Part shown: positions 26,651-60,570 of the stretch, piece after piece | Layout: the number at the start of each line of letters is the position of its first letter | How positions within the stretch are numbered: the stretch's first letter is position 1 | From: Spinellus fusiger | Lineage: Eukaryota; Mucoromycota; Mucoromycetes; Mucorales; Phycomycetaceae | NCBI GenBank assembly: GCA_025094145.1 | Contig: JALLLS010000037.1 | Span: 264,354 to 328,353 of the forward strand | Length of the DNA: 64,000 bases | Reading direction: 5' to 3' | Notes under the pieces: generated by a model | Database searches by the model: none | The model's input: only the letters and a program-made list of their open reading frames with translations | What the model was told of the DNA's origin: nothing | Position numbers and translations under genes: made by a program

Positions 26651-27290
26651 CTACACACCCAAAGATTTTGGGATATATACTGAATATTCTTATGATTGGC
26701 TAATGTGTTTTAAAATGCTTTTTTTTTTGCTGTCTAAATGAGCTATTTCAAACTCTACCTGCCTGTTTTAGCAATCACTATTGACTTTGCAATTAAAAAG
26801 TATAGAAGTAGCTGTAAAGACAAGAAATAGAACAAGAATCTACTTAATATTACAACTCAGTCACTGCATTTATTGTTTAACATAATGTGTTAACTATAAG
26901 CCCATAGTATTTGCAGTATAACACTGCTTAAGAAAGATGTATTATAGAACACACTGAATTAACTCTAGTGGTCATTGTCTATAAAATAGAACCAAACTTA
27001 CTTATATTAAGAACTGTATAATCATTCATTGACTTAATATTCATAATCACTTCAACTAACTCATTGTAACTGTTCTCAACAATAGTACTTAATGAGAACA
27101 AGGTATTGTTTCTAATACTGGACTTTAGGCTCAAGCCAAATAGAGTGTGAGTTGTTTGGCTTGTGAGTTTGACTTGTAAATTTTGACTTGTGAATTTTAT
27201 GAGTAGAGGCTAGTATATACATCACCAGAATAAAGAAAGAAAAATTATTTGTTTTGATTTTCCCCTCCTTTTGTTATTTCCCACACTGCA
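26651..27290 (-). mobile_element. TIR-1 element, copy 3, truncated
   Basis: It starts with the TIR CTACACACCCAAAGATTTT at 26651 and runs in reverse along the 3' half of TIR-1, up to TTCCCACACTGCA where LTR-A cuts in. It lies 39 bp after tRNA-Val. Confidence 0.75.
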
Positions 27291-27918
27291 TGAGATTGTT
27301 TGGACAGGTAGATTAATGAGACTGAACAAAGATAATTTTTATTGAGTAAAGAAAGGTTCACTATTTATACTTTTGGTGGGTGCTTATCCTTCAGTGGCTT
27401 CTACCTTATGGTAGTTATGATAGTCAACCTTATGGCTGCTTCACAATTACAACTAAATGGTTGGTGGGGACATTCTACCTTATGGTAGAATTCACTCTCT
27501 TTGACCTTATGGTCAGTGTCTATATTACTACCTTATGGTAGTATTAATAACTGCCACCTTATGGTTGGCTCATATGTTTTACTTAGTTGTAGTATTATTA
27601 GATTCAACCCTATGGTTGGTTCCTGGGATAAGCACTCCATTATTAAAACCATGAATTATTATGAGTCTTTACTCAATTGACTCTGATAGGTCAATATTGT
27701 TCTGTTAGGATTATTAATGAAGATGGCTCTTGTTAAGTGTCTGATAGTACACTGAGCTTAGAAGGTTGATTTGTTGTTATGACCAATCAGTGAGATGATA
27801 CAGGGATGTACTATGGTACTTGTGTGCACTCAAGCTTTCATAGAGTATTCTGAATGTCACAGCATACTACTCATGTTGACCAATTCATAGAGAATCTTTG
27901 GATTGAAGTTGGAACACA
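27291..27918 (-). mobile_element. LTR-A copy 2 (628 bp)
   Basis: Same length as copy 1 and inverted to it. It carries the palindrome row at 27395-27615. Its 5' end joins LINE-B ORF1 at exactly the same base as copy 4 joins the duplicate ORF1 at 40026, so LINE and LTR were copied together at one of the two sites. Confidence 0.85.
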
Positions 27919-28479
27919 ACATCCAGTATCAAAGCCAAGGGTTCTGAGGAGCTTATGCACTTCTGGATGGTTCATGCATCTTCCACGGGGGATATACACA
28001 TAGTTGTACCCTTGTTCACCCACTGAGACAGTGAAGGCTCTTGTTGCAGCAGCAACACGTCTCTCTGAAGGCTGTGACCTCTTGACAGGAGCCTTGGCAT
28101 GTTTCTTGGCCACTGTGGCCCAAGAAGAGTCCTTGACAGTAGGCAGACCTTGTAGTGGATCAGTTGCTCTACTCTTTGGTGTCTGTGTTTCCTTTGGTGT
28201 CAGGACATTGGTGGGGGCTGGGACTGTTGGTGATGCTGCTGCTGCTTTGAGGGCACTGATCTCTGCCTCCAGAGCCTTGACTGTCCCTTGCAGTCTTGAG
28301 TTTTCTTCCAGGAGTCTCTCAAAAGCATCAAGCATTTGCTGCTGCTGGTGATTATGCTGTCTGACCTGAGCTATCTCAGCAGAGAGCAAAGTCAACACCA
28401 AAATAATGTCAGCTTGGGAGGGAGCAGCTGTGTTTTGCTGCAACTGCAGTAACTGTTGGTGGGTATTCCCAAAAGACAT
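27871..28479 (-). pseudogene. LINE-B ORF1 N-terminal half fused to LTR sequence
   Basis: From ATG at 28479 the frame codes 187 LINE residues followed by about 15 residues read from LTR-A before a stop (202 in total). It has a Gln-rich start, a coiled coil (MLDAFERLLEENSRLQ, TVKALEAEISALKA) and the conserved DSSWATVAKKHAKAP and GYNYVYIPRGR motifs of this LINE's ORF1, but it lacks the C-terminal RNA-binding half. The predicted protein is identical to the one at 39465-40073, with one synonymous base change. It is a truncated LINE gene; a retained function is possible but unproven. Confidence 0.7.
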
Positions 28480-28669
28480 GGTGTATCTACTGCTATTCAA
28501 GTGGTGTAGACCTGAAACTTGGACAGTAGGTGGGGAGGTGGGTGATGTTGATGGATGGATTGTGTTTTTTGATGGATGCAGCATTTTGGTGATGGATGGA
28601 TGATTTTCAAATTTGGATAGACTTACAATTTTGGTTTTCAAAAAAGTGTTACTTAGCAGAAAGAGAGAT
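27919..28669 (-). mobile_element. LINE-B 5' end, abutting tRNA relic
   Basis: 5' end of a LINE read on the minus strand. It begins at 28669 (ATCTCTCTTTCTGCTAAG) directly at the first base of the 15-bp tRNA relic. The 5' UTR has a run of CATC-type repeats. ORF1 begins at 28479 and the element is cut at 27919 by LTR-A. Confidence 0.8.
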
Positions 28670-28684
28670 GCCCATTTAGCTCAG
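28670..28684 (+). repeat. 15-bp tRNA 5' relic: target-site duplication of LINE-C
   Basis: GCCCATTTAGCTCAG equals nucleotides 1-15 of the tRNA-Ile at 37292 except for one base (A for G at position 5). It lies between the 3' end of LINE-C and the 5' end of LINE-B. The rest of the tRNA is missing. It is too short to be a gene, and it fits a duplication left by target-primed insertion. Confidence 0.75.
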
Positions 28685-28929
28685 GTTAAAGATTATTTTT
28701 TTATTAAAGGGGTATTTGTCACATGCTTCAAAAAGTAAAGTGACCCCACAGAAAAGAAATGAAAAGAAACAAAAAAACATCTAAGACTAAAAGATATAAA
28801 AATGCTAAACTACTTGACAGAAAACTCTAAACTACTAACTAAACTACTGTTCTGGAGGTCTTTCACCCAATGTGCACTAAATGGTTGTGGCAGTGGGGGA
28901 GAGCAACCAGGAAACAGACAGAAAAGGTT

Positions 28930-31900
28930 TCATTCTTGTAAAGACCTAATACTGCCACCAGAGGCCTGCCACAGAGATCCAGGAGACAAGTCCTCAGGAA
29001 AGAAACAGTCTGGGCAACATAGTGTTTCTATGTGCCAGAGCAAGGCAAGTAAGGTGGGCCACCACACAGGACAGGGGGCACCACAACATGTTGAAAGGCT
29101 GTTGAGGCAATGGTCAATAGGGTGAACCCCAGCAGAACAAACAGGCAGCAAAGACCACAAGGAGACAGGCACAAGAGAGCACTCCAGCAGGTGACAGTGC
29201 AAGGTGTGGTCAAAACCACAAGGACACTCTCTAGGCTTTCCAGGGAGCCACCCAAGATGCCAACAGACCAAATGGCTTCTCTCTGCTCTAGAAGCAGGCA
29301 CCAACAGAACAAGATCAATTCCCAACAAGGGGCAGCAGTGTTTGATCAACACCATGGTGGTGGTGGCAAGGAACAGGTCTAACTTATCTTGTCTGTACTG
29401 CTCAAAGAACAGCTTGAGCTGACTGTCTTTGGCAGGAACAGGGTCTGGCAGGGCAAGTTACAGTGGGTTCTTTACCAGATATGAACTCCTTCTGGCCATG
29501 GGCAGAGAGGCAGAGAGCAGGACAAGAAGACAAGAGGAAGGCAAGGACCAAAAATGCAAGGCAAAACGGGTCACCAGCACATTTACCCTATGCTTCATGG
29601 AGGGCATGTTGGTGATGTGCTTCAGCACTGTTGTGGACAAAGTTGGGTGGCCACCCACCAGGAGATGGAGACACCTGTCTTGGAGCCTTTCAAGGGCTTT
29701 GTACTCTGCTGCTTTCAAGTAAGAGATGGCCAGGCCATACTCAAACTTTGGCCTCACAAAAGTAGAGTAGATGTAGGAGCAGAGATGGAGAGAGAAACCA
29801 GCATGGTTCACACCAACCAGGTTCAGGATACCCATCACCTTTAGGACACCTGGGGACCAAGAAGAGACCAAGGAAGAAGCAGATAGACCTTTCTTGCCAA
29901 AAGGCAGACCAAGATACATCACCTCCTCTGCATGTGGAAGTGGCACACCATACAGAGAGAGGGAGAGGCCATGGGACGTTGAAGAAGTGGAGGAGGGATG
30001 GTTCAACACCACACACTTGCTAGGGTTCTACCTGTACCCAAGAGAGAACAAATGTTGCTCTGCCAGAGCCAGCATATCCTGGACAGACTGCTTGTCTCCA
30101 AAGACAGCCACATCATCTGCAAAAAGTAGAGAGTTTACCACCACAGGAGCAGGATCAGAGGCAGAGGGAAGGGACACACAGTGGGACTTTGAACCAGCAC
30201 CAGGAACCAGACAAAGCAGACCAGGAAGAGAGTTAATGTACACTGTGTACAACTGTGGACTCAGCACAGAACCTTGCAACACTCCAGTCACAGGTGAAAA
30301 AGGAATGGAAGAGTGGTTAGAAACTAGCACTGATATTGTTACCTCATCAAATATATGGGAAACAAAAGACAGGAAAGCAGTGGGAGCACCAGCAGCAGAA
30401 AGGGCCTGCCAGACCACATTTCTGTCCACCTTGTCATAAGCTGAGGATATGTCCAAGAGGGCCACAACAGGATAGTGGTGATGTAGAAGGAAGTATGCAT
30501 GCATCAGATCATGCAAGCACAGAGCCTGATCCATGGGACTTCTCCTGGGATGGAAACTACCTTGTGCAAGATCAGGCACAGGAGCATAATGGGACAATGA
30601 TGGGGCCAGGCAGAACTCCAACAGCTTTCTTATCACCAAGGTCAAGGAAATAGGCCTGTAATTTTCTGCCAATGACTTTTCACCCTTCTTAAAGATGGGG
30701 AATACTGCTGCATGTCTCCATAGACAAGGAGTGTAAGACCACTGCCAGCAGACTGTGAAGAGCAAAGAAATGAGAGGGGCCACCACTGAGCACAGAGGCT
30801 TGAGCATTTCAGCCTTGATATGGTCAGTACCAGGGGCTTTCCTGTTAGGGAGAAGCTTGATACAACAACCCACCAAAGCAGAGTCAAACATTGGAATGCC
30901 AATGGATGGCAAACCAAGAGCACCAGACACACCAGACACACCAGACAGAACCAAAGGGACACCAGGAAAACCAGGAGAACCAGGAGAACCAGGGGAGACA
31001 TCAGACAAGACAACAGGAACACCAGAAGATGGACAGCCACCAGGAACACCAGACACACTAGACACACCAGGGGGAGGAAGGGGAGCATAGGAGGAGAAGG
31101 GAAGGAGGGAAGTGAAAGGACCAGGAGGGGGAGGATGGGAGGAAGGAAGGATGTCACCACTATATACAGTTTCAAGATGGTCAGCCATCACCTTTACAGC
31201 AACAGCCAGACCATCAGGGTGGGAGAAGGAAAGAGTGGAAGTGTGGCACCCCTTGAGATGCTTAACCTTGGCCAAAGCCTTGGAAAAGTTTGTCTCAAGT
31301 GACTTGCAGAAATTCTGCCATGAGAGCCTCTTGGCTGCCTGTACAGCTGTCTTGAAAGAGACTTGTGCTGCCTTGTATTTAGACCACCAGTGAACCTTGT
31401 CAATGCCAGTGCAGTAGTGCCACTTTCTGTAGCACCTTTCCCTGTTGGCAGCAGCAGATTGTAGAGCAGGAGACCAGTACTTCTTCCAATAGGAAGGCCA
31501 AGGAGTCATGGTACCCAGAGCTGCACCCAGAGATAGGTAGATACACTCATTGAGTGAGTCATTGAGACTGTCAATGAGTGGGCAAGTAGGGGGAGTGGAA
31601 GAAGCAAGGGATTGTAGTTGGGTGCATAGGGGTCAGGAGAAGGAGGTGAATGTGGAAATGTACAGGTTGCATGGATCTTCTTCTTGTAGTCTTGATAGAT
31701 TCCAGAGGCATTGGGGGTGAATGAATGATGAAGGGGAAGATGGGGGAGAAGGGGAAGTAGAGGACATATCATAGTTGAAGGACAGGGTAAGCATATGGTG
31801 GTCAGAGCCAAGGGAGAGATCAGAAAAGATATTCATAGAAGGGAGGGTCATAGGGAAATTGCATAGAAACAGGTCAATGATACTTGTGCATGTGCAATCA

Positions 31901-32448
31901 TGCTGGAAACCATGCCAAGTAGCAGTGCCATAGGAAAGAGAAGAGTTCAACACAGACAGGGACTGCTCCTCAAGCCATAGAACCATGGCAGAGCCACAGG
32001 GAGACATCACTGCATCACTAGTAATGTTGCCCAGCCTTGCATTGAAGTCACCACACAAGATGGTGTTGGGGAAAATAGGAAGAGAAGAAAGGACAGACAC
32101 AAATTGAGAACGTGGCATAGAAGGGGGGAGGTAAAGGCATAGAAAACAAAGTGGTCCCACTTTCAAAGAAAGGGTATACTTGTTTGGAGAAGGAAGTTGG
32201 TATACAGGAAAAGGAAAGGAAGGAGACACCAGAGCAGAGACACCCATAGAGCCACAATTGGCAGAAGGAACAGGAGAGCCATACAGATGGAATTGCTCCC
32301 AGTCTGTAGGAAGACAAGCAGGGGGAAGAAGCTAGGTTTCTGTGATAAAAAGAATGGAGGAGGGGGGACAGTGGGACAATACATCATGCACAATGGTTGT
32401 CTGAAGACCATTGGCATTCCATAAACTTACCTTTATGGACTCACTCAT
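28930..32448 (-). pseudogene. LINE-C ORF2: endonuclease-RT, several stop codons
   Basis: Starts at 32448 (MSESIKVSLWNANGL), overlapping the ORF1 stop by ATGA. The AP-type endonuclease has LWNANG, ITET, CGDFNARLG and GSDHHML. The RT has APGTDHIKAEM, FKKGEKSLAENYRPIS, LLDISSAYDKVD, GVLQGSVLSP and LLFADDVAVFG. The C-terminal part has a Cys/His cluster (CPCGFDHTLHCHLLEC). Breaks: TGG to TAG after ITET (about 32334), a TGA near 31634, TGG to TAG after LGYR (about 30026) and a stop after KNPL (29458). Linker repeats rich in Gly/Ser/Pro/Val lie between the domains (30890-31080). Confidence 0.9.
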
Positions 32449-33065
32449 AAATTGAGATTGTTGTCATAAGTCATAGGGGTAAAGGAGGGGGAGGAGGAGA
32501 CTTCACTCATCTCATCATCACTGATAGAGAAGGCTTGGTCATGGTGGCAGACAGCATGGGCAGGGTTGGAGAGGATCTCCTTGAGGTCTTCCTCAGAGAT
32601 CCAGCCAACAGAAAGGAAGGACTTGGCCACAGAGGGGGTCAGGGGTGTGGAGGTGGGTCAGGGCCAGGATGCACCTCTTACAGTGCACTTCATGGGCCTT
32701 GTCTTCCAATTCCTCAGAAGACAGGTTAGCAAAGGCAGGGTCAGCCAGGTGCTTAGGGTCCAGGGGCTCAAAACCAGAGATGACCTTCACCTGAGCCTTC
32801 TCCAAAAGCTCAAGGACAGTGGGGGCATAGCCATTGTGTACCAACAGGCCAAGGACAGAGCGGGCAGGGAAACAAATGTCCAGCAGACAGGAGGGCTCCA
32901 GACCAAAGACACAAAGGCGGCAACAGACCTCTTGTCTGGTCATCTTTCTTGACCAGGGGATGTAGATATACTGATGTCCTGTGACATCAGAAGCCTCAGA
33001 AAAGGCATGGACATTGGCCTCAAACTTCCTTTGGGAAGTAGTATGGATGAACTGGTCAAACAGGG
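32445..33065 (-). pseudogene. LINE-C ORF1 C-terminal part
   Basis: Reads HQYIYIPWSRKMTRQEV, then FPARSVLGLLVHNGYAPT, GFEPLDPKHLADPAF and a Ser-rich ending. A frame change at about 32620 separates two pieces. This half matches the ORF1 C-terminus of LINE-F2 closely and likely binds element RNA. It is joined at about 33065 to unrelated LINE-D ORF2 sequence. Confidence 0.8.
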
Positions 33066-33106
33066 ACTAGCGGAAGGAGTGGAAGAAGGACTTGAGCTTG
33101 CTGTCC

Positions 33107-36100
33107 TTAAGGAACAGGACTGGGAAGAGTAAGGTATAATGGATTTTGTGTGATAAATAAGGACATGCAGAAGACAGAGACAGACAAGGACAGGAGAACC
33201 AGGAGACAGGATGAATGAAGGGACTGGAAATGTAGAGCAAAGCAAGTTGCCAAGACATTCACTCTATGCTTCATTGAAGGAATGTTAGTAATGTGCCTAA
33301 GCACTGTAGTAGATGATGTGGGGTGACCCCCAACCAGCAGATGAAGACACTGATCTTGTAACCACTCCAGAGCTTTGTGGTCTTGAGCCTTCAGAAATGA
33401 GATGGCTAGGCCATACTCAAACTTGGGGTGCACAAAGGTAGAGTAGATCCTAGAGCACAGGAGGAGAGAGAAACCAGTACAACTGACACCAATCAGACTG
33501 AGAATGCCCATGACCTTGGCAACACCAGGAGACCAAGAAGACACCAGAGATAAAGCAATCAAGCCTTTCTTACCAAAAGGCAAACCTAGATAAGTCACCT
33601 CATCAGCCTGAGGGAGAGGAACACCATACAGAGACAGAGTATAACCACAAGCAGTTGATGACAATGGAGATGGATGATTGAGGACCACACACTTGGAGGG
33701 GTTCCACCTGAACCCTAGAGCATATGAGTGTTGTTCAGCAAGAGCCAGCATGACTTGCACTGACTCCTTTGTACCAAAGATAGCTACATCATCTGCAAAA
33801 AGCAGAGAGTTCACTACCACAGGCACAGAACCAGAGGAAGCACCAGAGACAGAACCAGAGACAGAACCAGGACCAGGACCAGGACCAGGACCAGAGGAAG
33901 CACCAGGAGACACCGGAAAATGGACAGAGTGAGAGTTATCACCAGCACCAGGAAATGAACAGAGAACACCAGGGAGTGAGTTGATGTACACTGTGTACAA
34001 CTGGGGACTGAGAACAGAACCCTGAAGTACACCAGTGACAGGGGAAAAGGGGAGGGAGGAGTGGTTAGATATCAACACAGAAATAGTTACCATGTCAAAT
34101 AGATGTGAAATGAATGACAGGAATGGGGGAGGAGCACCAGCAGCAGACAAAGCTTGCCAGACAATGTTATGGTCAACCTTGTCATAGGCAGAGGAGATGT
34201 CCAGCAAGGCAACAACAGGATAGTGATAATGGCGCATGAGGTGAGCATGCATCAGCTCATGCAGACACAGTGCTTGATCCAGGGGACCACAACAAGGACA
34301 AAACCCACCCTGAGCCAGATCAGGAACAGGAGAGAACTGAGAGAGGGATGGTGCCAGACAGAACTCCAACAGCTTACAGACCACAGAAGTCAGGGAAATA
34401 GGACAGTAGTTGCTTGGTAGTGCTGAGTCACCCTTCTTGAAAATGGGGAAGACTGCAGCATGGCACCATAGTGCAGGAGTGTAGGACCATTGCCAGCATA
34501 ATCAAAACATAAGGGAAAGGAGTGGGGAAACAATGAGGATAATGGGCTTCAGCATCTCAGCCTTCAAGTGATCAGAGCCAGGTGCTTTTCTGTTGGGTAA
34601 TAGCTTGATACACTTGCTAACCATGGCAGTAGAGAACATAGTGCTGAAGGTACCAGAGGAACATAGGGGTGGGGAGCATAGGGGTTCATAAGGGACACTA
34701 GCTACAGAAGGGGAAGAATGTGAAAGAGGAACATAGGGGGTGGGGGTGGATACATAGGTAGGGGAGGTGCTTGAAGGAGAGTCAGGGGAGAGAAAGGGAA
34801 TAAGGGGAGCATAGGGACCAGGAGGGGAAGGATGGGACAAAGGAAGGATATCTCCACTATACACCTGTGCAAGATGAGAAGCCATTACCTCTACTGCCTT
34901 GGACAGACCATTAGCATGGGAAAAGGAGAGTGAAGACTGGTGACGTTTCTTGAGCTGCTTCACCTTGGCTGTTGCCTTGGCAAAGTTTGTCTCCAGAGAC
35001 CTGCAAAAGTTCTGCCATGACTGGCATTTGGCTGCCTGGACATCAGACCTGAATCTGGCATGTGCTTGCTTGTGTTGGGTCCACCAGTGCACCTTGTCTA
35101 TGCCTGTTGCATACTGCCACTGCCTGTAGCAACATTCCCTGTTTTCAGCAGCTTGTTGGAGAGCAGGTGTTCAGTACTTCTTCCAGTGGGAGGGGCAAGA
35201 CCTTTTGGTTCCCAGAGCAGTGTCCAAGGATGCATAGATGCACTCATTGAGCTGATCATTGAGATTGTCAATGGGTGGGCATGATGAAGGAGGGGAGGTG
35301 ACAAGGGAGTGTAAATGAGTGGAAAGGGGGGAAGAAAGAGTGGTAAAGGTGTTGGCATAGAGGTCACATGGATCCTGTTCTTTCAGACATGCTAGATTCC
35401 AGAGGCACCTTGGGTGGATGGTTGAAGAAGAAGGGGAAGAAGATGAAGAAGAAGACAAGGACATATCATAAGAAAAAGAAAGTGACATAAGACAATGATC
35501 AGACCCAAGGGAAAGATCAGTGTTGATGTGCATAGAAGGGGAGGTCATATCAAAGTTGCATAAGAATAGGCCAAGGATACTTGAGCATGTGTGTTGCTGC
35601 CGGAAACCATGCCAAGTAGCAATGCCATAGGAAAGAGAAGAGTTCAACACAGACAGGGACCATTCTTCAAACCATGGGACTATGGCAGTGCCATGGGGAG
35701 ACATCACTGAATCACCAGTAATGTCACCCAGTCTTGCATTGAAGTCACCACACAGGATGGTGTTGGGGTAGATGGGAGAGAGGAAAGAATGGACATAAGA
35801 TCAGAACATGAGAGGGAGGGAGGGAGGTAGAGGCATAAGAAACAAAGTGGTCCCACTTTCAATGAAAGGGTATACTTGTTTGGAGAAGGGAGTTGGTGGA
35901 CAGGGTAAGGAAAGGAAGGAGAGACCAGAGCAGAGACACCCATGGAGCCATGGTAGGAGGAGACCACAGGAGAGCCATACAAATGGAACTGCTCCCAGTC
36001 AGTGGGAAGACAAGCAGGAGAGAGGAGCCATGTTTCTGTGATGAAAAGGAGAGTAGTGGGGGGACAGTGGGAGAGAACATCATGCACAGTGGTTGCCCTA

Positions 36101-36144
36101 AGACCATTGGCATTCCAAAGACTTACATTGATTGTATCACTCAT
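33107..36144 (-). pseudogene. LINE-D ORF2: endonuclease-RT, frameshifted
   Basis: Start at 36144 (MSDTINVSLWNANGL) with ATGA overlap of ORF1. The endonuclease part has FITETWLL and, after a frame change at about 35720, SLGSDH. The RT part has LLPNRKAPGSDHLKAEM, then another break near 34400-34500, then LLDISSAYDKVD, GVLQGSVLSP and LLFADDVAIFG. A Gly-Pro-Ser linker of variable length (33830-33910) sits just before the FADD block. At least three breaks make it non-coding as a whole. Confidence 0.88.
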
Positions 36145-37092
36145 AAAGAGGGACTTTCTGAGGATGAGACAGACAGAGCTTCATGGTCCATATCATAGTC
36201 ATCCAGATCTCTCTGGAAGCCATTGGCTGGGTGGTCACAATCATGGAGGTGGGGACATGCAGGCTGCTGCTTGAGGAACTCCTCATAGTCTTCAGGCTGC
36301 ATCCAGCCAAAGGAAACAAAGGAGCAGAGGACAGGGGAAACCAGGGTGTACTTCATGTGCACTAGGGCACAACAGCAACGTTGGAGGTGGATCATGTGGG
36401 CATGGTTGGCCAGCTCACTATCAGTGCATGTCTCAAACTTGGGGTCTGCCAGGTGTTCAGGACTCATGGATCAAAGTTATCCAGGATCTTGACCTGGACC
36501 TTCTCCAGGAGTTCACGGATGTTGGAGGCAAACTGGTCATGCACAAGCAGACCAAGAACAGAATGGGCAGGGAAGGAGATGTCCAGGATGTGGGAGGTGT
36601 CTACACCAAGACAACAGAGAAATTGCATACCTCTTTATGCTGCATCTTGTGGGAACAGGGGATGTAGATGTACTGGAAACCCTGGGCACCAGTGGGGATC
36701 TGGAATCCACAAGCAGCAGCAGCAACACAATGGACAGCAACAGGGGGACAAACAGTAGGGGATTTGGGAGTGGCAGCTACTTTGGAGTAAGAAGGAACAT
36801 TAGTAGCAATGTTAGTCTTTTTGGCTGTTTTGTGGGGAAAAACAGGTGGTGACTGGGTTTGAATCTGAGTCAGATCAGTTTGGGGAGGTGTAACAGTCTT
36901 CTTTGAAGACTGGGAAGAGAGCTGGGCCTTGAGAGAGGCAATCTCCAGGTGCAAATGGTTGTTTTCAGCTGTCAATTCTGACAACTTAGCCAAAATCTGG
37001 TCATGTTGGCTGGTTTTTTGTTTGAGGGTGCAAATAGCAGCCCGGATAGCAGCCAGCTGGTCTGCCAGTGTCAAAGTGGCAGTTTCGGCCAT
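36141..37092 (-). pseudogene. LINE-D ORF1, one frameshift
   Basis: From ATG 37092 it codes a coiled coil (ADQLAAIRAAICTLKQK, LAKLSELTAENNHLHLEIA), a Thr/Pro-rich part and GFQYIYIPCSHKM. It then changes frame at about 36620 and resumes to LADPKFETCTDSELANH and the stop at 36141. Same architecture as the other ORF1 proteins of this family but clearly diverged. Confidence 0.85.
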
Positions 37093-37291
37093 GTTTTTGA
37101 CAACAAAAACAGAAAAAAGTGGATAGAATGGTGGTTTTTGGTCCAAAGAAGTTGAGAGTTGGTGTAGAGGTGTATCTTGGATGGATGTTGAGGGGTGTAC
37201 AATGGATGCAAATGGATGTATGCTTGTTGTTCTGATGCAAAACTGTTTACTTACTTCAAAAACTAATAGGAAAGTGAAAGAGAAGTCACCT

Positions 37292-37364
37292 GCCCGTTTA
37301 GCTCAGTTGGTTAGAGCGTGGTGCTAATAACGCCAAGGTCACAGGTTCGACCCCTGTAATGGGC
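37292..37364 (+). tRNA. tRNA-Ile (AAT)
   Basis: 73 nt. Acceptor GCCCGTT/AATGGGC, D arm GCTC...GAGC, anticodon loop CTAATAA (AAT), variable loop AGGTC and T arm ACAGG-TTCGACC-CCTGT all pair. A T run follows within 10 bp. Box A is TTAGCTCAGTTGG. LINE-D starts at the base before position 1, so the usual 5' flank is LINE sequence. Confidence 0.95.
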
Positions 37365-37383
37365 AATACTTTTTCAATATCAA

Positions 37384-38170: not shown

Positions 38171-38376
38171 ACCTGTATACTACATATATTTAATAGTAAT
38201 AATCTTTCATTAGAGAAAAAAAGTTATTAAGAAAGAATAATGTTAATCATTTTTTTGATATAAATATTTAGCCTAGAATTTGAAACCATTATTTACATTT
38301 GTTTGGACAATTTATACTAATTAAGTTTACTTTTTTTTTAAATTAAATAATAAAATCAATTAAAATAATGAATAAT

Positions 38377-38448
38377 GCCTTCTGCCAGAATTGAACTGGC
38401 GACCTTCTGCTTACTAGGCAGACGCTCTGCCAACTGAGCCAAGAAGGC
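38377..38448 (-). tRNA. tRNA-Thr (AGT), copy 1
   Basis: 72 nt on the minus strand. Acceptor GCCTTCT/AGAAGGC, anticodon loop CTAGTAA (AGT) and T arm GCCAG-TTCAATT-CTGGC all pair; no intron. Identical to the gene at 60123-60194 although the flanks on the 3' side are unrelated. SINE-1 begins at the base before position 1. Confidence 0.95.
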
Positions 38449-38886
38449 TTCTGCTCTAAAGCAGGCATCCCAGCCCATACTAATTTTCTGACAAGGTGGG
38501 TGACTGCCTTTGGTTTTGCAGTCTTGGCTGGCGGTTTTGACCATGTGTCCTGTCCTTTTCCCTCCCATGCAGGCACTGCCTTGCAGTCCTCTATGTTCAT
38601 ATATGCCCAAAAAAGGGTTTAATGCCATTTGCTTTCTGGTGTGGTTCTTGGTCTGGTTGGTCTGGTCTGGTTGTCTGGCAGGTAGAGGATGCCCTCACAG
38701 GCTTAAATAAGCTATCTTTCCTATCTTTCCAATAAGTCTTAGTCTAAAATTTGTCTGTACTTCAATTCCTTTCCTTTCTCTCTATGTTTCCTATCCATTT
38801 ATGTAATATGCTTCCCTATATGTTCTGCAGAGTCACTGTACTATATTTAGCCTGTGAAATATACTCCTTGAAATAAATAATCTTGA
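38449..38886 (+). mobile_element. SINE-1 (5'-truncated), inserted at tRNA-Thr +1
   Basis: The insertion is bounded by a 17-bp duplication, AACTGAGCCAAGAAGGC, at 38432-38448 (inside the tRNA) and 38887-38903. The body (TTCTGCTCTAAA ... AGGATGCCCTCACAGGC) is about 93 percent like SINE-2 at 60.2 kb, but the tRNA-like head is missing. The 3' tail from AGTCTTAG to AATAAATAATCTTG is related to the tail of LINE-C. It codes no protein; open frames over it are accidental. Confidence 0.85.
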
Positions 38887-38903
38887 AACTGAGCCAAGAA
38901 GGC
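38887..38903 (-). repeat. 17-bp tRNA-Thr 5' relic: target-site duplication of SINE-1
   Basis: Exact copy of nucleotides 1-17 of tRNA-Thr (minus strand), equal to 38432-38448. LINE-B' 5' sequence follows at once, so that LINE was already at this tRNA when SINE-1 arrived. Confidence 0.9.
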
Positions 38904-40025
38904 ATCTCTCTTTCTGTTGTTCCCTAATTTGGACAGAATAGTTCTAAGCCTGGAGGTATGTGCACAGAGTGGAATAGCTAGTGGTTCTTGGTTTGGACTG
39001 AAGCCCATGTAGATCAAAGAGGAAGAATAAAAGAGAAGATAGAAGATAATGTTTATTCATTGAATTCACTTGATTATTTATACTAAATTCTAGTGTACAA
39101 TTGCACATACATGTCTTGGCTTAACATGTTCTCTTCACAGTGAACATGTTAAGCCAAGACACTATATTGCATTAGCATTTATCTTATTAATTATATTATA
39201 TTATCTGTGTGTATCCACACAGGATAATATGTGCTCCAAAAAGGGAAGACATGTGCAGCCAATAGTATTACTCTATTTGACAGGACAGTGTCTAGCACAG
39301 ACATTTTTCAAAAGAAAAATTGTAAGTCTATCCAAATTTGAAATCATCCATCCATCATCAAAATGCTGCATCCATCTATAAATACTATCCATCCATCAAC
39401 ATCACCCACCTCCCCACCTACTGTCCAAGTTTCAAGTCATCACTAAAATAGCAGTAGATACACCATGTCTTTTGGGAATACCCACCAACAGTTGCTGCAG
39501 TTGCAGCAAAACACAGCTGCTCCCTCCCAAGCTGACATTATTTTGGTGTTGACTTTGCTCTCTGCTGAGATAGCTCAGGTCAGACAGCATAATCACCAGC
39601 AGCAGCAAATGCTTGATGCTTTTGAGAGACTCCTGGAAGAAAACTCAAGACTGCAAGGGACAGTCAAGGCTCTGGAGGCAGAGATCAGTGCCCTCAAAGC
39701 AGCAGCAGCATCACCAACAGTCCCAGCCCCCACCAATGTCCTGACACCAAAGGAAACACAGACACCAAAGAGTAGAGCAACTGATCCACTACAAGGTCTG
39801 CCTACTGTCAAGGACTCTTCTTGGGCCACAGTGGCCAAGAAACATGCCAAGGCTCCTGTCAAGAGGTCACAGCCTTCAGAGAGACGTGTTGCTGCTGCAA
39901 CAAGAGCCTTCACTGTCTCAGTGGGTGAACAAGGGTACAACTATGTGTATATCCCCCGTGGAAGATGCATGAACCATCCAGAAGTGCATAAGCTCCTCAG
40001 AACCCTTGGCTTTGATACTGGATGT
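38904..40025 (+). mobile_element. LINE-B' 5' end (duplicate of LINE-B), split by LTR-B
   Basis: 11 bp of LINE 5' end (ATCTCTCTTTC), then LTR-B, then the rest of the 5' UTR and ORF1 up to LTR-A at 40026. The 5' UTR differs from that of LINE-B at roughly a dozen places, whereas the ORF1 part differs at one base. Confidence 0.8.
38915..39297 (-). mobile_element. LTR-B copy 2, ending 11 bp before the tRNA-Thr relic
   Basis: 383 bp. Its 3' end (sense GGGAACAACA) is 11 nt from position 1 of the tRNA-Thr relic, in the same relative orientation as copies 1 and 3. It holds a perfect hairpin with 19-bp arms (39113-39131 and 39142-39160, loop 10 nt) and a smaller one (CTGTGTG...CACACAG). Confidence 0.85.
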
Positions 40026-40073
40026 TGTGTTCCAACTTCAATCCAAAGATTCTCTATGAATTGGTCAACATGA
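39465..40073 (+). pseudogene. LINE-B' ORF1 N-terminal half fused to LTR sequence
   Basis: 202-residue frame, identical in protein sequence to 27871-28479. 187 residues are LINE ORF1 (Gln-rich start, coiled coil, SSWATVAKK, YVYIPRGR) and the rest is read from LTR-A (40026-40073). The ATG has a good context (CACCATG). It is either a remnant copied together with the LTR or a kept chimeric gene. Confidence 0.7.
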
Positions 40074-40605
40074 GTAGTATGCTGTGATATTCAGAATACT
40101 CTATGAAAGCTTGAGTGCACACAAGTACCATAGTACATCCCTGTATCATCTCACTGATTGGTCATAACAACAAATCAACCTTCTAAAGCTCAGTGTACTA
40201 TCAAACACTTAACAAGAGCCATCTTCATTAATAATCCTAACAGAACAATATTGGCCTATCAGAGTCAATTGAGTAAAGACTCATAATAATTCATAGTTTC
40301 AATAATGGAGTGCTTATCCCAGGAACCAACCATAGGGTTGAATCTAATAATACTACAACTAAGTAAAACATATGAGCCAACCATAAGGTGGCAGTTATTA
40401 ATACTACCATAAGGTAGTAATATAGACACTGACCATAAGGTCAAAGAGAGTGAATTCTACCATAAGGTAGAATAGATCATCCTACCATAAGGCAGAAGCC
40501 ACTGAAGGATAAGCACCCACCAAAAGTATAAATAGTGAACCTTTCTTTACTCAATAAAAAGGATCTTTGTTCAGTCTTGTTAATCTACCTGTCCAAACAA
40601 TCTCA
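40026..40605 (+). mobile_element. LTR-A copy 4 (580 bp)
   Basis: Complete ends (TGTGTTCC ... AATCTCA), shorter than copies 1 and 2 because part of the palindrome row was lost. A TATA box (AGTATAAATAG) and CAATAAAAA are kept. Confidence 0.85.
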
Positions 40606-40697
40606 TTCCTATTACAGAATTATACCAGAGCATGAAAAAAGTCCATTATTATTTTGAAAGCCATTGTATTATAAGTTAGCAGAAGTAGTGTTTAGAG

Positions 40698-47328: not shown

Positions 47329-47515
47329 CCTAGGATGTTAGTGTAGTTGCTGGTGTTGTTCCAGCAGAAGGAATGGCAGGGGTTGAAGCAGGCTTGGCCT
47401 GTACTCCAGGGATGTAGGTGGTGGGCTTGGTGGTAGCAGAGGAAGCAGACCTAGTCACCCTAGGAAAGAGCTCCTTTGTCTTCTGCCTTTTGGTGGCAGG
47501 GGTCTCCATCTGTGG

Positions 47516-48585: not shown

Positions 48586-48590
48586 GAATT

Positions 48591-50614: not shown

Positions 50615-50822
50615 GTTTTGACTGAGGCTTATTGAGTGGTATTAAGTCCAAATAAGTACTATAGTCTACAATGTTTTGAAGAGGGAAAGATTCTTTATCT
50701 ACATCTATCAATATGAGCTCATTGTCCAATTCATAAATAGTATTTCAAAAAGTGTGCATTTGTTTTTTGAGGTTGTACAAATACTTTCTGAAATATGTAA
50801 ATGCAAAATGTAAAAATAAAGT

Positions 50823-50904
50823 CCGGCTTACCAGATTCGAACTAGTGACCTAAGGATTACAAATTCATTACAGTCCTCCGCTCTACCAACTGAGCTAAAG
50901 CCGG
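50823..50904 (-). tRNA. tRNA-Tyr (GTA) with a 10-nt intron
   Basis: 82 nt including an intron (TGAATTTGTA or its shifted equivalent) one base after the anticodon, the standard site. Acceptor CCGGCTT/AAGCCGG, D arm, anticodon GTA and T arm CTAGT-TCGAATC-TGGT-type pairing are good. Box A is TTAGCTCAGTTGG. LINE-F1 begins at the base before position 1. Confidence 0.93.
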
Positions 50905-51280
50905 ATATCACTTCTCTTTCTGCTAAAGATCAATTTTTTTCAAAATTCGTAAGTTCAATCCAAAAATTCAAAAACGTCCATCCGTCTCCAAAAAGCTACA
51001 TCCATCTGCATCCATCATCAATCCATCTTCCCCCATCTCCCGACTATCTTCTACAAAAGTTTCAGACCTCCAGCTCTCAAACTTGACCAGATCCACTATG
51101 TTCTCTTCTCCAGCAGGACAACAACACCTTTTGGCTAATGCCACCACCACTACCACCGAAGCTCAACTTATCTCGGCAGTGACGTCACTCCAACAGAGCT
51201 TTGCTCAAATGGCTTCTGAGCACACCCATCAGAAGCAGAGACTTGAGGCCTTTAAGGCCATTATGGAAGAAAACAGACTC
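50905..51280 (+). mobile_element. LINE-F1, 5' fragment at tRNA-Tyr
   Basis: Begins ATATCACTTCTCTTTCTGC directly after tRNA-Tyr. A 5' UTR with CATC repeats is followed by the ORF1 start at 51098 (MFSSPAGQQHLL...FKAIMEEN), which is cut at about 51280 where a second LINE 5' end begins. At the joint an 18-bp unit, GACTCTCTTTCACTTTCT, is repeated in tandem. Confidence 0.8.
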
Positions 51281-51447
51281 TCTTTCACTTTCTGACTCTC
51301 TTTCACTTTCTCCTCACTTTTGGTAAGTTTTCAAATTTTAACTAACTTTTTTTCCACCCCATCTATTTGCATCCAGTACATTTTTGGGTGCATCCATCTG
51401 CTGCCTTTTCGAATCCATTGTCTGTTTTCCTCTAGGCCTATTTCTCA

Positions 51448-52485
51448 ATGAGCTTCTCTCCCTTTCCTTTGGGAACACCTTTACACCTTGTCTCTGGTGC
51501 CATGGAGACCACCACCGAACCACCACCTAGTCCGGCCCTGTCGGACTTCCAATCCCTGACTGCCTTAGTTTTAGGCCTGGCAAAAAAGGTCCAGGAGCTA
51601 GAGAGCTCCAAGGCTGATATCTTGGCTCTGAGAGGTCGGATTTCAGAGCTTGAGGCGGAGAACGAAAGCCTGCGACGTCGCGCAGCCGCCACAACACCAG
51701 TCACACCCATGACGTCATCGTCGGAGGTAAAAAATGCAAAAATTACTAACAATATGTTGGTTTCTCCTGTCTCTTCTTCAGGATTTTCCCCCCTGTCTGC
51801 CTCTGCCAATGCTGTCAAAACAGCAAAGGACTCTTCCTGGGCCACTGTGGCCAAGAAAAACTGCCCTGCTCCTGCTCCCAGACCTAGGACTTCCCAAAGG
51901 AAGTTTGAGGCTAATGTCCGAGTCTTTTCTGAGGCTTCTGATGTCACAGGACATCAGTATATCTACATCCCCTGGTCAAGAAAGATGACCAGACAAGAGG
52001 TCCGTTGCCACCTTTGTGTCTTTGGTCTGGAGCCCTCCCGTCTGCTGGACATTTGTTTCCCTGCCCGCTCTGTCCTTGGCCTGTTGGTCCATAATGGGTA
52101 TGCCCCCACTGTCCTGGAGCTCTTGGAGAAGGCTCAGGTGAAGGTCATCTCTGGGTTTGAGCCCCTGGACCCCAAACACCTGGTTGACCCTGCCTTTGCC
52201 AGCCTGTCTTCTGAGGAATTGGAAGACAAGGCCCATGAAGTGCACCGTAAGAGGTGCATCCTGGCCCTGACCCACCTCCGCACCCTCCTGATCCCCTCTG
52301 TGGCCAAGTCCTTCCTTTCTGTTGGCTGGATCTCTGAGGAAGACCTCAAGGAGATCCTCTCCAACCCTACCCATGCTGTCCGCCACCGTGACCAAGCCTT
52401 CTCCATCAGTGATGATGAGATGAGTGAAGTCTCCTCCTCCCCCTCCTTTACCCCTATGACCCATGATGACAATCTTGATTTATGA
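51448..52485 (+). CDS. LINE-F2 ORF1 protein (intact, 345 aa)
   Basis: Uninterrupted frame from ATG 51448; an internal ATG at 51502 (METTTEPPP) is an alternative start. Residues of about 40-80 form a coiled coil (LAKKVQELESSKADILALRGRISELEAE). DSSWATVAKK and GHQYIYIPWSRKMTRQEV follow, then the C-terminal core FPARSVLGLLVHNGY, LLEKAQVKVISGFEPLDPKHL and a Ser-rich acidic end. ORF1 proteins of LINEs usually bind their RNA as trimers through such a coiled coil. The stop overlaps the ORF2 start as ATGA. Confidence 0.85.
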   Translation: MSFSPFPLGTPLHLVSGAMETTTEPPPSPALSDFQSLTALVLGLAKKVQELESSKADILALRGRISELEAENESLRRRAAATTPVTPMTSSSEVKNAKITNNMLVSPVSSSGFSPLSASANAVKTAKDSSWATVAKKNCPAPAPRPRTSQRKFEANVRVFSEASDVTGHQYIYIPWSRKMTRQEVRCHLCVFGLEPSRLLDICFPARSVLGLLVHNGYAPTVLELLEKAQVKVISGFEPLDPKHLVDPAFASLSSEELEDKAHEVHRKRCILALTHLRTLLIPSVAKSFLSVGWISEEDLKEILSNPTHAVRHRDQAFSISDDEMSEVSSSPSFTPMTHDDNLDL

Positions 52486-55400
52486 GTGAGTCCATAAAGG
52501 TAAGTTTATGGAATGCCAATGGTCTTTGGACAACCATTGTGCATGATGTATTGTCCCACTGTCCCCCCTCCTCCATTCTTTTTATCACAGAAACCTGGCT
52601 TCTTCCCCCTGCCTGTCTACCTACAGACTGGGAGCAATTCCATCTGTATGGCTCTCCTGTTCTCTCTGCCAACCGTGGCTCTATGGGTGTCTCTGCTCTG
52701 GTGTCTCCTTCCTTTCCCTTTCCTGTCTACCAACTTCCTTCTCCAAACAAGTATACCCTTTCTTTGAAAGTGGGACCACTTCGTTTTCTATGCCTGTACC
52801 TCCCCCCTTCTATGCCACGTTCTCACTTTATGTCTGTCCTTTCTTCTCTTCCTATTTTCCCCAACACCATCTTGTGTGGTGACTTCAATGCAAGGCTGGG
52901 TGACATTACTGGTGATGCAGTGATGTCTCCCCGTGGCTCTGCCATGGTTCCATGGCTTGAGGAGCGGTCCCTGTCTGTGTTGAACTCTTCTCTTTCCTAT
53001 GGCACTGCTACCTGGCATGGTTTCTGGCGTGATTGCACATGCACAAGTATCATTGACCTGTTTCTATGCAATTTCCCTATGACCCTCCCTTCTATGAATA
53101 TCTTTTCTGACCTCTCCCTTGGCTCTGACCACCGTATGCTTACCCTTTCCTTTACCTATGACATGTCCTCTACCTCCCCTTCTCCCCCATCCTCCCCTTC
53201 ATCATTTATTCACCCCCGACGCCTCTGGAATCTGTCAAGACTACAAGAAGAAGATCCATGCAACCTGTACATTTCCACATTCACCTCCCTCTCCCAACCC
53301 CTATGCACCCAACTACAATCCCTTGTGTCTTCCCCTCCCCCTACTTGCCCACTCATTGACAGTCTCAATGACTCACTCAATGAGTGTATCTACCTATCTC
53401 TGGATGCAGCTCTGGGTACCAAGACTCCTCGGCGTCCCATTGGAAAAAGTACTGGTCTCCTGCTCTACAATCTGCTGCTGCCAACAGGGAAAAGTGCTAC
53501 AGAAAGTGGCACTACTGCACTGGCATTGACAAGGTCCACTGGTGGTCAAAGTACAAGGCTGCCCATGCTTCCTTTGTGTCTGCTGTCCTGTCAGCAAAAC
53601 GTATGTCATGGCAGAATTTCTGCAAGTCACTTGAGACCAACTTTTCCAAGGCTTCAGCCAAGGTCAAGCATCTCAAGGGGCGCCACACTTCCACTCCTTC
53701 CTTCACCCACCCTGATGGTCCAGCTGTTGCTGTAAAAGTGATGGCTGACCATCTTGAAACTGTATATAGTGGTGACATCCTTCCTTCCTCCCGTCCTCCC
53801 CCTCCTGGTCCCTTTACTTCCCTCCTTCCCTTCTCCTCCTATGCTCCCCTTCCTTCCCCTGGTGTCTGGTGTCTGGTGTGTCTGGTGTGTCTGGTGTTCC
53901 TGGTGCCGTCTGTCTTCTGGTGTTCCTGTTGTCCTGTCTGGTGTCTCTGGCTCTCTTGGTGTGTCTGGTGTGTCTGTTGGTTCTGGTGTCTCTGGTGCTC
54001 TTGGTATGCATATGGGCATTCCAATGTTTGACTCTGCTCTTGTTGCTGGCTGTATCAAGCTTCTCCCCAACAGGAAAGCCCCTGGTACAGACCATCTCAA
54101 GGCAGAAATGCTGAAGCCTCTTAGTCTGGTCCTGGCCCCCCTACTGGCTAACCTGTTCACTGTTTGCTGGCAGTGGTCCCACACTCCTCAGCTATGGAGA
54201 CATGCTGCAGTCTTCCCAATTTACAAGAAGGGTGAGAAATCTGATGCTGCCAATTATAGGCCAATTTCCCTTACCTCAGTGGTCAGAAAGCTGCTGGAAT
54301 TCTGCATTGCCCCCTCATTGTCACAGTATTCTCCAGTTCCTGACTTGGCACAAGGTGGATTTTGCCCAAAGAGAAGTTCTCTGGACCAGGCCCTGGGTCT
54401 GCATGACCTGATGCATGCTCACTACCTTCAACACCACCATTATCCAGTTGTGGCACTTCTGGATATATCTTCAGCATATGACAAGGTTGACAGACATGTG
54501 GTCTGGCAAGCCCTGTCTTCCTTTGGCACTCCTCCAGCACTCCTCTCATTTGTCTCTCACCTTTTTGATGAGGTAACCATCTCTGTGCTCTTGTCTAACC
54601 ACTCTTCTTTACCATTTGCTCCAGTGACTGGAGTGCTCCAAGGGTCAGTGTTGAGCCCATGTCTATACTCACTGTATATCAACTCTCTGCCTGCCTTGCT
54701 TCGTTGTGCTGCTAGGCCAACAACCCACTGTGTGTCCTTTCCCTCTGGTTCTGGTTCTGGTTCTGGTTCTGGCTCTGGTCCTGCCTTGGTTCCTGTGAAC
54801 TCTCTGCTTTTTGCAGATGACGTGGCTGTCTTTGGAGACAAAGATGCAGTACAAGATATGCTGGCTCTGGCAGAGCAGCATTCGTTCTCTCTTGGGTACA
54901 GGTGGAACCCTAGCAAGTGTGTGGTGTTGAACCATCCCTCCTCCACTTCCTCAACGTCCCGTGGCCTCTCCCTCTCTCTGTATGGTGTGCCACTTCCACA
55001 TGCAGAGGAGGTGACATATCTTGGTCTGCCCTTTGGCAAGAAGGACATCATACCTGGTAAAAAATCCACTGTACCTTGCCCTGCCAGACCCTGTTCCTGT
55101 AAAGGACAGTCAACTCAAGTTGTTCTTTGAGCAGTACTGCCAGCAAAAGTTTGACCTGTTTCTTGCCTCCACCAATATGGTTCTGATCAAGCATTGCCAC
55201 CCATGCTGGGTATTGATCCTGTTCTGCTGGTGCCTGCTACCAGAGCTGAGAGAAGTTGTTTGGTCTGTTGGCATCTTGGGTGGCCCCCAGGTCAGCCTAG
55301 AGAGTGTCCTTGTGGTCTTGACCATACCTCACACCATCACCTGCTAGAGTGTTCTCTTGTGCCTGTCTCCTTGTGGTCTCTGCTGCCTGTTTGTTTTGCT

Positions 55401-55592
55401 GGGGCTCACCCAATTGATTTTTGCCTGAACAGCCTTTCAACATGTCATGATGCCCCCTGTTCTGTGTGGTGGCCCACACTATTATCATTGCTCTGGCACA
55501 TAGAGACACTATGTTGCCCTGACCACTTCTTCCCTGAGGACTTGCCTCCTGGTTCTCTTTGGCTGGCCTTTGGTTCTTCTGAACATGGATGA
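52482..55592 (+). pseudogene. LINE-F2 ORF2: endonuclease-RT, broken
   Basis: The endonuclease (52482 to about 53400) is intact: LWNANGL, FITETWLL, LCGDFNARLGD, STIIDLF-like and LGSDHRML. Frame changes follow near 53430 and 53880. The RT (53990-55040) has LLPNRKAPGTDHLKAEML, YKKGEKSDAANYRPIS, LLDISSAYDKVD, GVLQGSVLSP and LLFADDVAVFG. An internal deletion of roughly 500 bp at about 55045 removes the thumb region, after which YLVKNPLYLALPDPV continues to the Cys/His end (CPCGLDHTSHHHLLEC). Gly-Ser and Val-Trp-Cys repeats fill the two linkers. Confidence 0.9.
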
Positions 55593-55715
55593 AAGCTGTT
55601 CTTTCTGTCCTTTAGTTGCTCTCCCCCCACTGCCACAATCTTTTAGTGCACACTGGGTGAATGACCTCTAAAGCAGTAGTTTAGTAAATAGTCTTAGTAT
55701 ATCTTATCTTTAGAG

Positions 55716-59994: not shown

Positions 59995-60122
59995 AAATAA
60001 AAGATTGAGATTGATGGTGGGGAAAAAGGAAAAAAAAGTTTGCATATTGGGTTAACACAAAAAGAGCATAAAATTTGTAAATTGCAGATCCTTTATAAAA
60101 AGATAAACTTATATAATAAGTT

Positions 60123-60194
60123 GCCTTCTGCCAGAATTGAACTGGCGACCTTCTGCTTACTAGGCAGACGCTCTGCCAACTGAGCCAAGAAGGC
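60123..60194 (-). tRNA. tRNA-Thr (AGT), copy 2
   Basis: Identical to 38377-38448 in all 72 bases, all stems paired, anticodon AGT. SINE-2 begins at the base before position 1. The 3' flank differs from that of copy 1, so the two loci are not a simple segmental duplication. Confidence 0.95.
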
Positions 60195-60570
60195 GGGGAT
60201 GTTTGGCTTGGCCAAGTTGGTATTAACATGTGCTAAGCATTGCAGAGGTTGCAGGTTCAAATCCCAGGGAAGATTAATTTCTGCTCTAAAAACAGGCATC
60301 CCAGCCCCTACTAATTTTCTGGCAAGGTGTGTGACTGCTTTTGGTTTTGCAGTCTTGGCTGGCAGTTTTGACCATGTGTTTTGTCTTTTTTCCTCCCATG
60401 CAGGCACTGCCTTGCAGTCCTCTATGTTCATATATGCCCAAAAAAGGGTTTAATGCTGTTTGCTTTCTGGTGTGGTTCTTGGTCTGGTTGGTCTGGTCTG
60501 GTTGTCTGGCAGGTGGAGGATGCCCTCACAGGCTTAAATAAGCAATCTTTCCTATCTTTCAAATAAGCCT
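60195..60570 (+). mobile_element. SINE-2 with tRNA-like head, at tRNA-Thr +1
   Basis: The head (60195-60270) has box A-like TGGCCAAGTTGG and box B-like GGTTCAAATCC at tRNA spacing, so it can act as an internal Pol III promoter. The acceptor stem does not pair, so it is not a working tRNA. The body matches SINE-1 from TTTCTGCTCTAAA to AATAAG(T/C)CTTAG; the tail then runs into AT-rich DNA and no second tRNA-Thr 5' copy is found. Confidence 0.8.

Follow-up and report, generated by a model that had tools for sequence, protein, structure and literature searches.

Related LINE families and a SINE of Spinellus fusiger that very probably target tRNA genes of many isotypes

Among retroelements that land at fixed places, R1 has 28S ribosomal DNA as its target, and the insertion of Ty3 is integrase-based. 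R1 and TRAS1 are sequence-specific elements of the apurinic/apyrimidinic endonuclease (APE) type, TRAS1 being directed to telomeric repeats (PDB title). Transfer RNA (tRNA) genes are used too, and what is said of these systems here and below is taken from extracts of the papers cited. TRE5 of Dictyostelium inserts about 40-54 bp upstream, and a downstream range of 40-150 bp is given for TRE3/TRE5, outside the gene (PMC5911963, PMC5006619). NLTR-A of D. purpureum sits 2-6 bp upstream of the first tRNA nucleotide, a distance given for 16 elements, with 28 copies in total (PMC5006619, PMC5911963). NeSL-1_TV, LIN15_SM and LIN25_SM, which like these lack long terminal repeats (non-LTR elements), each use a single tRNA isotype (Pro, Arg and Glu), and are regarded as related to NeSL, whose clade has a restriction-like endonuclease (PMC4640811). 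The present work concerns related families of long interspersed nuclear elements (LINEs) and a short interspersed nuclear element (SINE) of the fungus Spinellus fusiger, seen in a stretch of 64,000 nucleotides (GenBank assembly GCA_025094145.1, contig JALLLS010000037.1, positions 264,354 to 328,353), hereafter the window, and followed through the genome (38,076,753 bases, 197 contigs). They are very probably target-specific non-LTR retrotransposons, landing on tRNA genes of many isotypes.

With TRE5 and TRE3 they share the APE type and the choice of tRNA genes, but insertion in Dictyostelium takes place at a distance and here at base +1 of the tRNA. This contrast, drawn by a first-pass annotation of the window, is correct for TRE5 and TRE3, but NLTR-A, at 2-6 bp, has to be added to it (PMC5006619). 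NLTR-A, a non-LTR retrotransposon directly upstream of tRNA genes, is nearest in position; it has an RNase H downstream of its reverse transcriptase, Pfam finding none here, it lives in another host group, and the extracts mention no duplication for it. In the present elements the 5' end lies at +1, and a duplication takes in tRNA nucleotides (nt) 1-14. NeSL-1_TV and the LIN elements have specificity for tRNA genes as well, but the elements described here are of APE type and use many isotypes. Ty3 and Ty3-like elements with long terminal repeats (LTRs) target the starts of tRNA genes at base level (PMC5911963), but they remain outside the mature tRNA, a position which is taken here by a separate LTR-like repeat beside the LINEs. 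Dada elements occupy fixed positions inside tRNA genes, but they are DNA transposons making 6-7 bp duplications, and their tRNA families are mostly devoted to one tRNA type (PMC3706591). As described, no compared system has an APE endonuclease and a range of many isotypes together with a box A nick and a rebuilt gene, and no description of such a system in Mucoromycota was found in the extracts of open-licence literature. LINEs that target tRNA genes were already known; position, breadth and gene rebuilding look new.

Six junctions between a retroelement 5' end and a tRNA sequence had been claimed for the window (LINE-D, LINE-F1, LINE-B, LINE-B', SINE-1 and SINE-2), and all six are present. 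The features concerned are as follows.

26138-26526: 389-bp repeat beginning with TG and ending with CA, with ACTGT on both sides, 12 bp from tRNA-Val
27285..28669, minus strand: LINE-B, 5' end (28669) at the Ile relic; far end approximate
28670..28683, plus strand: relic of tRNA-Ile nt 1-14, GCCCATTTAGCTCA, 13/14 identical, the change being CpG to CpA
28684..33075, minus strand: LINE-C, 3' part; 3' end at 28684, followed by the Ile relic
33076..37291, minus strand: LINE-D, 5' end (37291) at tRNA-Ile +1
37292..37366, plus strand: intact tRNA-Ile(AAT); ARAGORN gives 37291-37366, nt 1 being read from the sequence
38376..38448, minus strand: intact tRNA-Thr(AGT), target of SINE-1, nt 1 at 38448 (ARAGORN)
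38449..38889, plus strand: SINE-1, without the tRNA-like head, 5' end at tRNA +1 (sequence comparison)
38890..38903, plus strand: 14-nt target-site duplication TGAGCCAAGAAGGC, the reverse complement of tRNA-Thr nt 1-14
38904..38914, plus strand: start of LINE-B' (11 bases, ATCTCTCTTTC) next to the Thr relic
38915..39303, plus strand: 389-bp TG..CA repeat, solo-LTR-like, splitting LINE-B' near its 5' end
39304..40606, plus strand: remainder of LINE-B', which is the 5' part of an element of family B; far end by self-comparison
about 41523-41696: copy of the 389-bp repeat
50822..50904, minus strand: intron-bearing tRNA, target of LINE-F1; Tyr in our reading, Asn by ARAGORN -i
50905..55710, plus strand: LINE-F1, F-family 5' end to about 51275 and C-like body after it; chimeric, 3' end not clean
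52482..55130, plus strand: open reading frame 2 (ORF2) of LINE-F1, divided into two open pieces that match an APE-type endonuclease and a reverse transcriptase
60122..60194, minus strand: tRNA-Thr(AGT), target of SINE-2 (ARAGORN)
60195..60573, plus strand: SINE-2, a tRNA-like head of about 80 bp from tRNA +1 and then the SINE body; 3' end missing

In LINE-D and LINE-F1 the family start is separated from tRNA +1 by five extra bases. The join of LINE-D to LINE-C near 33075 carries no relic, hence D and C are not two clean insertions and this stack has been rearranged.

The genome was searched with the 5' ends of three LINE families (F, B and D) and with the SINE, and the upstream flanks were then read; L-numbers below designate individual loci examined and C-numbers contigs. 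The F-type search gave 55 candidates, with 40 rows listed and 30 fetched, L046 and, by query range, ten unfetched rows not being F 5' ends; 30 of the 44 listed B-type rows were fetched and examined, and six short fragments among the 23 SINE rows listed were left out of the 17 copies. An intact tRNA gene or a tRNA relic abuts 64 of the 84 copies examined at their 5' end, and in all 64 the 5' end of the element faces that of the tRNA, the element pointing away. The core of what had been proposed from the window holds in copies far away from it. The first-pass annotation had envisaged that most copies might lie away from tRNA genes, or that every copy might carry the same tRNA; most copies do not lie away from them, and the tRNA varies from copy to copy.

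Among the 29 F copies with a 5' end, 22 are at an intact tRNA gene, between -1 and +2 of the alignment start, and two at a tRNA 5' relic (L031, and L041 by eye); in one (L043) the tRNA is behind the 389-bp repeat and the F start is absent at the repeat edge, and four 5' ends (L032, L042, L044, L045) are not assigned. The 30 B copies comprise four at tRNA genes, nine at relics (one of only 9 nt, by eye), five that keep the B start at the tRNA or relic with the 389-bp repeat next, three (L054, L064, L068) with the tRNA or relic behind the repeat and the full B start absent, and nine not assigned. One of the eight D matches is at a tRNA gene, four are at relics (two by eye), one is behind another repeat, and two have no usable 5' end. 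Thirteen of the 17 SINE copies are at tRNA genes and three at relics, while the seventeenth (L004) has its first ten bases at the tRNA and the 389-bp repeat next. L043, L054, L064 and L068 were excluded from the +1 count, the full expected element start being absent at the repeat edge. The targets of F copies include His, Asp, Glu, Gly, Gln, two Pro, two Val, Ala, Thr and Tyr-like tRNAs (10 isotypes), and the use of so many isotypes identifies the tRNA as the target, not as a part of the element. Of the 22 F copies at intact genes, most begin at +1 with no base in between. Copies truncated at the 5' end start there too: L035 and L039 (F minus about 10 and 21 bases), SINE-1, and L145 and L185, pieces of ORF2 recognised by eye. 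The 5' edge is therefore set by the target cut and not by the element's own end.

The same position emerges from the side of the tRNA genes. Sixty of them were fetched with 80 bases upstream, regardless of elements; they were taken from the 63 scored out of 1446 candidates (the three omitted are two on C197 and one on C54) and do not form a random sample. Element-start motifs (at least 9/10 bases) were found at offset 0 in 19 genes, at offset 1 in 11 and at offset 4 in one, offsets 0 and 1 overlapping because the start motif is repetitive, and none was found at offsets 5-59 in the 60. By eye, 17 of the 60 have over 20 bases of LINE or SINE sequence immediately at +1.

For the other end of the elements, five types of 3' end (F1, D, C, F and G) were used for the search, the flanks were read, and 66 junctions were parsed; these do not include L078 and L049, where the motif does not fit, nor the LINE 3' end in L085, which escaped the parsing. 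Behind the element, 43 of the 66 carry a sequence that matches nt 1-14 of one of the sampled tRNAs, in reverse complement, at 12/14 bases or more. Only 9 of 20,000 random 14-mers drawn from the fetched loci match nt 1-14 as well as this, so that chance is excluded. A further 11 junctions are clear by eye: four carry one Gly-type sequence outside the tRNA set, two have 9-nt relics, three have box-A-like sequences, and the last two show a decayed Phe and a Glu that comes after four extra bases. Three more (L111, L119, L136) show a partial match. One could argue, in general terms, that flanks of tRNA genes are safe places, and that insertion is random with survival only there. Selection for survival cannot, however, yield a base-exact 5' position together with a 14-nt tRNA duplication, and we regard this explanation as very unlikely indeed.

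How long is the duplication? Most relics begin with T, complementary to A14, and are preceded by C even where tRNA-Lys and tRNA-Gln have A15, which means that nt 15 is not copied. A14 is identical in every sampled tRNA; the T of the relic could therefore be the last base of the element, which places the first nick after nt 13 or after A14, in either case inside box A. The duplication is accordingly of 14 nt (13 if the invariant base belongs to the element), and of 9 (or 8) nt in two F copies. A 17-bp duplication had been noted around SINE-1. The 17-bp match (38887-38903) is real, but the duplication is only the 14 nt of 38890-38903, with three bases coinciding with the element's own 3' end. 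Similarly, LINE-C does end in a copy of the tRNA-Ile 5' end, which covers nt 1-14 at 13/14 and not nt 1-15. Duplications of 17 or 15 bp were rejected, the Lys and Gln copies lacking a copied nt 15. The imperfection of the LINE-C copy, recorded earlier as 14/15, is explained by preferential decay at CpG: in 48 relics, C to T or G to A changes affect 23/72 CpG positions as against 8/264 other C/G positions. This pattern suggests cytosine methylation or a process resembling repeat-induced point mutation over these repeats. At L204 (positions 1-100), a tRNA-Ala is followed by an extra copy, of about 12 nt, of its own 5' end and then by a C-family LINE; the extra piece looks like a second small duplication event.

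Grouped by their 3' untranslated region, a grouping of our own, the junctions differ in the bases that precede the nick (^) on the tRNA sense strand. F, D and G rows have TA^ in 32/36, TAA^ in three and another sequence in one, and B, C, E and SINE rows have TCA^ in 29/30. The 5' side agrees independently: TA or AA occupies nt 13-14 of the intact tRNA in 20/22 F copies, the tRNAs of the remaining two carrying TCA (L017, L019), and at B and SINE 5' ends the intact tRNAs belong to CTCA types. The lineages thus differ in their choice of tRNA, F/D/G using TA or AA at nt 13-14 and B/C/E/SINE mostly TCA. The two short duplications belong here as well. They end in TTTA^G, at a tRNA-Thr (L019/L104, 9/9 bases) and at a Tyr-type relic (L031/L099, 8/9); both sit at CTCA-type tRNA sequences, with 5' ends no more than six bases from +1. 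A 9-nt duplication whose 5' end is still near +1 implies that the second cut keeps no fixed distance from the first.

If the tRNA is the target, both ends of a copy should speak of the same gene. SINE copies do so: the 5' tRNA and the 3' relic agree at 13-14 of 14 bases in 14/14 copies, and none of 100,000 shuffles matches this. Two of three B pairs agree at 12 bases or more and the third at 11/14; the B pair L061/L129, 14/14 by eye, is outside that pair count. Also excluded from the count are SINE-2, which has no 3' end, the inverted pair L084, and F copies with 9-nt relics or unassigned 5' ends. These data bear on the idea that the tRNA pieces belong to the element consensus, as a tRNA-derived head or tail, which would render the junctions trivial. 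The SINE does have a tRNA-like head of its own. But the flanking tRNA varies by copy, an intact gene is present in 22/29 F copies, and SINE ends match each other in all 14 pairs; we rejected the idea in view of the different tRNAs per copy, and consider it next to impossible.

The ORF2 endonuclease would, to judge from the duplications, make its nick in the sense strand of the tRNA gene, behind nt 13 or 14, probably reading a few bases there, and the freed 3' end would prime reverse transcription of the element RNA, as in other LINEs. The opposite strand would be cut at +1, where the element 5' end, full-length or truncated, would be joined. The insertion model of the first-pass annotation (box-A nick on the sense strand, opposite cut at +1, tRNA left whole) stands in this form, both nicks being deduced from duplications, and complete tRNA genes after insertion are borne out in copies far from the window. 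Its exact place for the nick, after GCTCAG, does not stand: the nick falls not after nt 15 but after nt 13 or 14, and GCTCA^ is found in one lineage only. Successive insertions at one tRNA gene stack outward with 14-nt relics between them, and sequential insertion at a real tRNA would explain the stacks that we looked at.

What chooses the gene is a separate matter. R2 on 28S ribosomal DNA is a precedent for recognition by sequence alone, in which the endonuclease or another ORF part would here bind box A and the 5' edge, unaided by RNA polymerase III (Pol III). The base-exact position, the lineage-specific bases at nt 13-14, their recurrence at eight of nine 3' ends devoid of a tRNA relic, and the shift to nt 9 in two F copies all fit this account; yet the sampled tRNA 5' ends have little in common outside box A while the edge is at +1, and the motif is far too short for selecting tRNA genes by itself. 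We see it as possible, but as the less probable of the serious candidates. The other serious candidate is tethering to the Pol III complex (TFIIIB/TFIIIC), of the kind described for TRE5 in Dictyostelium and Ty3 in yeast, with the nick bases as no more than a local preference. It is favoured by the many isotypes used, and by the LTR-like repeat 11-16 bp upstream of 14 sampled tRNA genes, another position-specific element there. Against it, neither TRE5, which inserts 40-54 bp upstream, nor Ty3, which inserts 1-4 bp from the start site, enters the mature tRNA (PMC5911963), and the nick here is inside box A, where TFIIIC would sit. Taken by itself, tethering has in our opinion an even chance. 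We think a mixture most likely, tethering picking the gene and the endonuclease the bond; the Pol III transcription complex would be the likeliest source both of gene choice and of the second cut at +1.

To be sure, several observations weigh against this account. The 5' ends of 20 of the 84 copies have no tRNA assignment, most being beside a recurrent repeat, and none of the 20 was demonstrated to be a clean tRNA-free site. Nine of the 66 3' junctions (L077, L080, L091, L118, L122, L128, L131, L132, L133) have no tRNA relic; as nick-motif bases are present at eight of these (TCA^ in 5/6 B/C rows, TA^ in 3/3 F/D/G rows), some such bases may be the element's own last ones. Extra bases (1-6) are found at some 5' junctions, including one to five in F copies L017, L019, L026 and L040. 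B-like starts of about 11 bases adjoin two tRNA-Met genes with GCA at nt 12-14 (L193, L194), and TCA is not strict for B if these starts are real. All the data come from a single genome, and nick order, strand order and guidance by Pol III are inferences of ours. Finally, the two ends agree in only 5/10 F copies (508 of 100,000 shuffles reach that) and in 2/3 D copies. The F loci with discordant ends are on C17, C36, C49, C54 and C79. These mismatches, in five of ten F and one of three D copies, are what would be expected if 3' relics were carried along from a donor copy by 3' transduction instead of being made at the target. On the other hand, SINE pairs agree in 14/14, the second, new duplication to be expected was not seen by eye in five F flanks, and L084 (C59:25380-27200) illustrates how relics can be swapped: its two inverted SINEs bear each other's tRNA relics, which fits an inversion between them. 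Transduction is in our view very unlikely. Many F copies being 98-99.6% identical over 1.4 kb, recombination, exchange or misassembly between near-identical copies is in our reading the likely cause of the F mismatches.

Taken together, tRNA genes may be targeted as a class, by an APE nick in box A at nt 13-14 of many isotypes, with a second cut set by the +1 edge, wherever the first nick falls (14 or 9 nt), and with the gene rebuilt; two family groups would divide the tRNA genes (TA/AA versus mostly TCA), and stacks would be anchored on the tRNA gene, relic order and CpG decay recording the order of insertion. As a whole, this combination seems to us evenly poised between right and wrong. It would be a further way for LINEs to use tRNA genes, neither distant nor restricted to a single isotype, in which the internal promoter is cut and restored. 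The elements would have a safe landing site, leaving a trail of short tRNA fragments, and from the 14-nt relics and stacks the succession of insertions could be read. Studies of target-primed insertion into safe multicopy sites would profit from an APE nuclease of this specificity.

The same tRNA genes bear the 389-bp TG..CA repeat, of which 40 near full-length copies were scored among 126 candidates, in both orientations. It lies 11-16 bp from nt 1 in all 14 cases adjoining a scored tRNA gene (one between two tRNAs), and 10-16 bp upstream of tRNA genes overall where measured, and sometimes falls among the opening bases of a LINE or SINE; the SINE of L004 is split by it after ten bases, with TTTG duplicated. 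Its target duplications are of 4-5 bp in two cases. It looks like the solo LTR of a Ty3-like element, a reading qualified by three same-strand pairs 6-7 kb apart (C135, C161, C197); no coding part turned up, no search having been aimed at one. In the genome of Rhizopus oryzae, Ty3/gypsy elements often co-localise with tRNA genes (PMC2699053). If the repeat is a Ty3-like LTR, the tRNA genes would have stayed active after LINE insertion, and two unrelated targeting systems could be compared on the same genes. That the recurrent 5' flanks devoid of tRNA might be other Pol III targets was considered and rejected, the commonest being this repeat in both orientations. Further recurrent repeat ends near LINE 5' ends were seen in the upstream flanks of L053, L062, L069, L070, L075, L044, L059 and L045; called LTR-like solely from these recurrent ends, they are probably other such families in the same position.

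As for the nature of the elements, ORF2 carries an APE-type endonuclease and a reverse transcriptase. Near the top of the matches to the latter, the named relatives are proteins of Rhizopus, Parasitella and Mucor, with 55-62% identity across 72-78% of the query; these relationships, together with those of an unrelated open frame described below, point to a Mucoromycotina host. Compared by sequence with the PDB, the endonuclease alone gave no match at E<=10, but a fold comparison did match. In two ORF2 proteins Pfam gave no match to an RNase H family at E<=1, though a diverged domain may have escaped it, and in the ORF2 of L202 and L204 none to zf-RVT at E<=1. Judged on sequence features, namely the APE-like endonuclease with reverse transcriptase, 5' truncations and target-site duplications, these families are LINEs. 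Full-length SINE copies have a tRNA-like head of about 80 bp, with box A- and box B-like words seen by eye, and their last 60-90 bp match LINE 3' ends. Such a Pol III-type head and LINE-shared tail qualify the element as a SINE, probably mobilised by the LINEs through the shared 3' end.

The window has some further features. A second, broken LINE type (43538-48630, minus strand) has RVT_1 and endonuclease matches, and a weak zf-RVT match (E 0.027) below the cut-off. ARAGORN, run without introns, found no tRNA gene at its ends. It is possibly similar to Grem-LINE1 of Mucor, compared by description only, which has a zf-RVT domain (PMC7377519). A tandem array of 31-bp units (61981-64000) reaches the contig end. 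Lastly, an open frame of 465 codons (9634-11031, plus strand) has relatives, mostly from Mucorales genera, that carry PF14474, which we take to be RTC4-like; the eight relatives come from Apophysomyces, Phycomyces, Radiomyces, Backusella, Lichtheimia and one other source.

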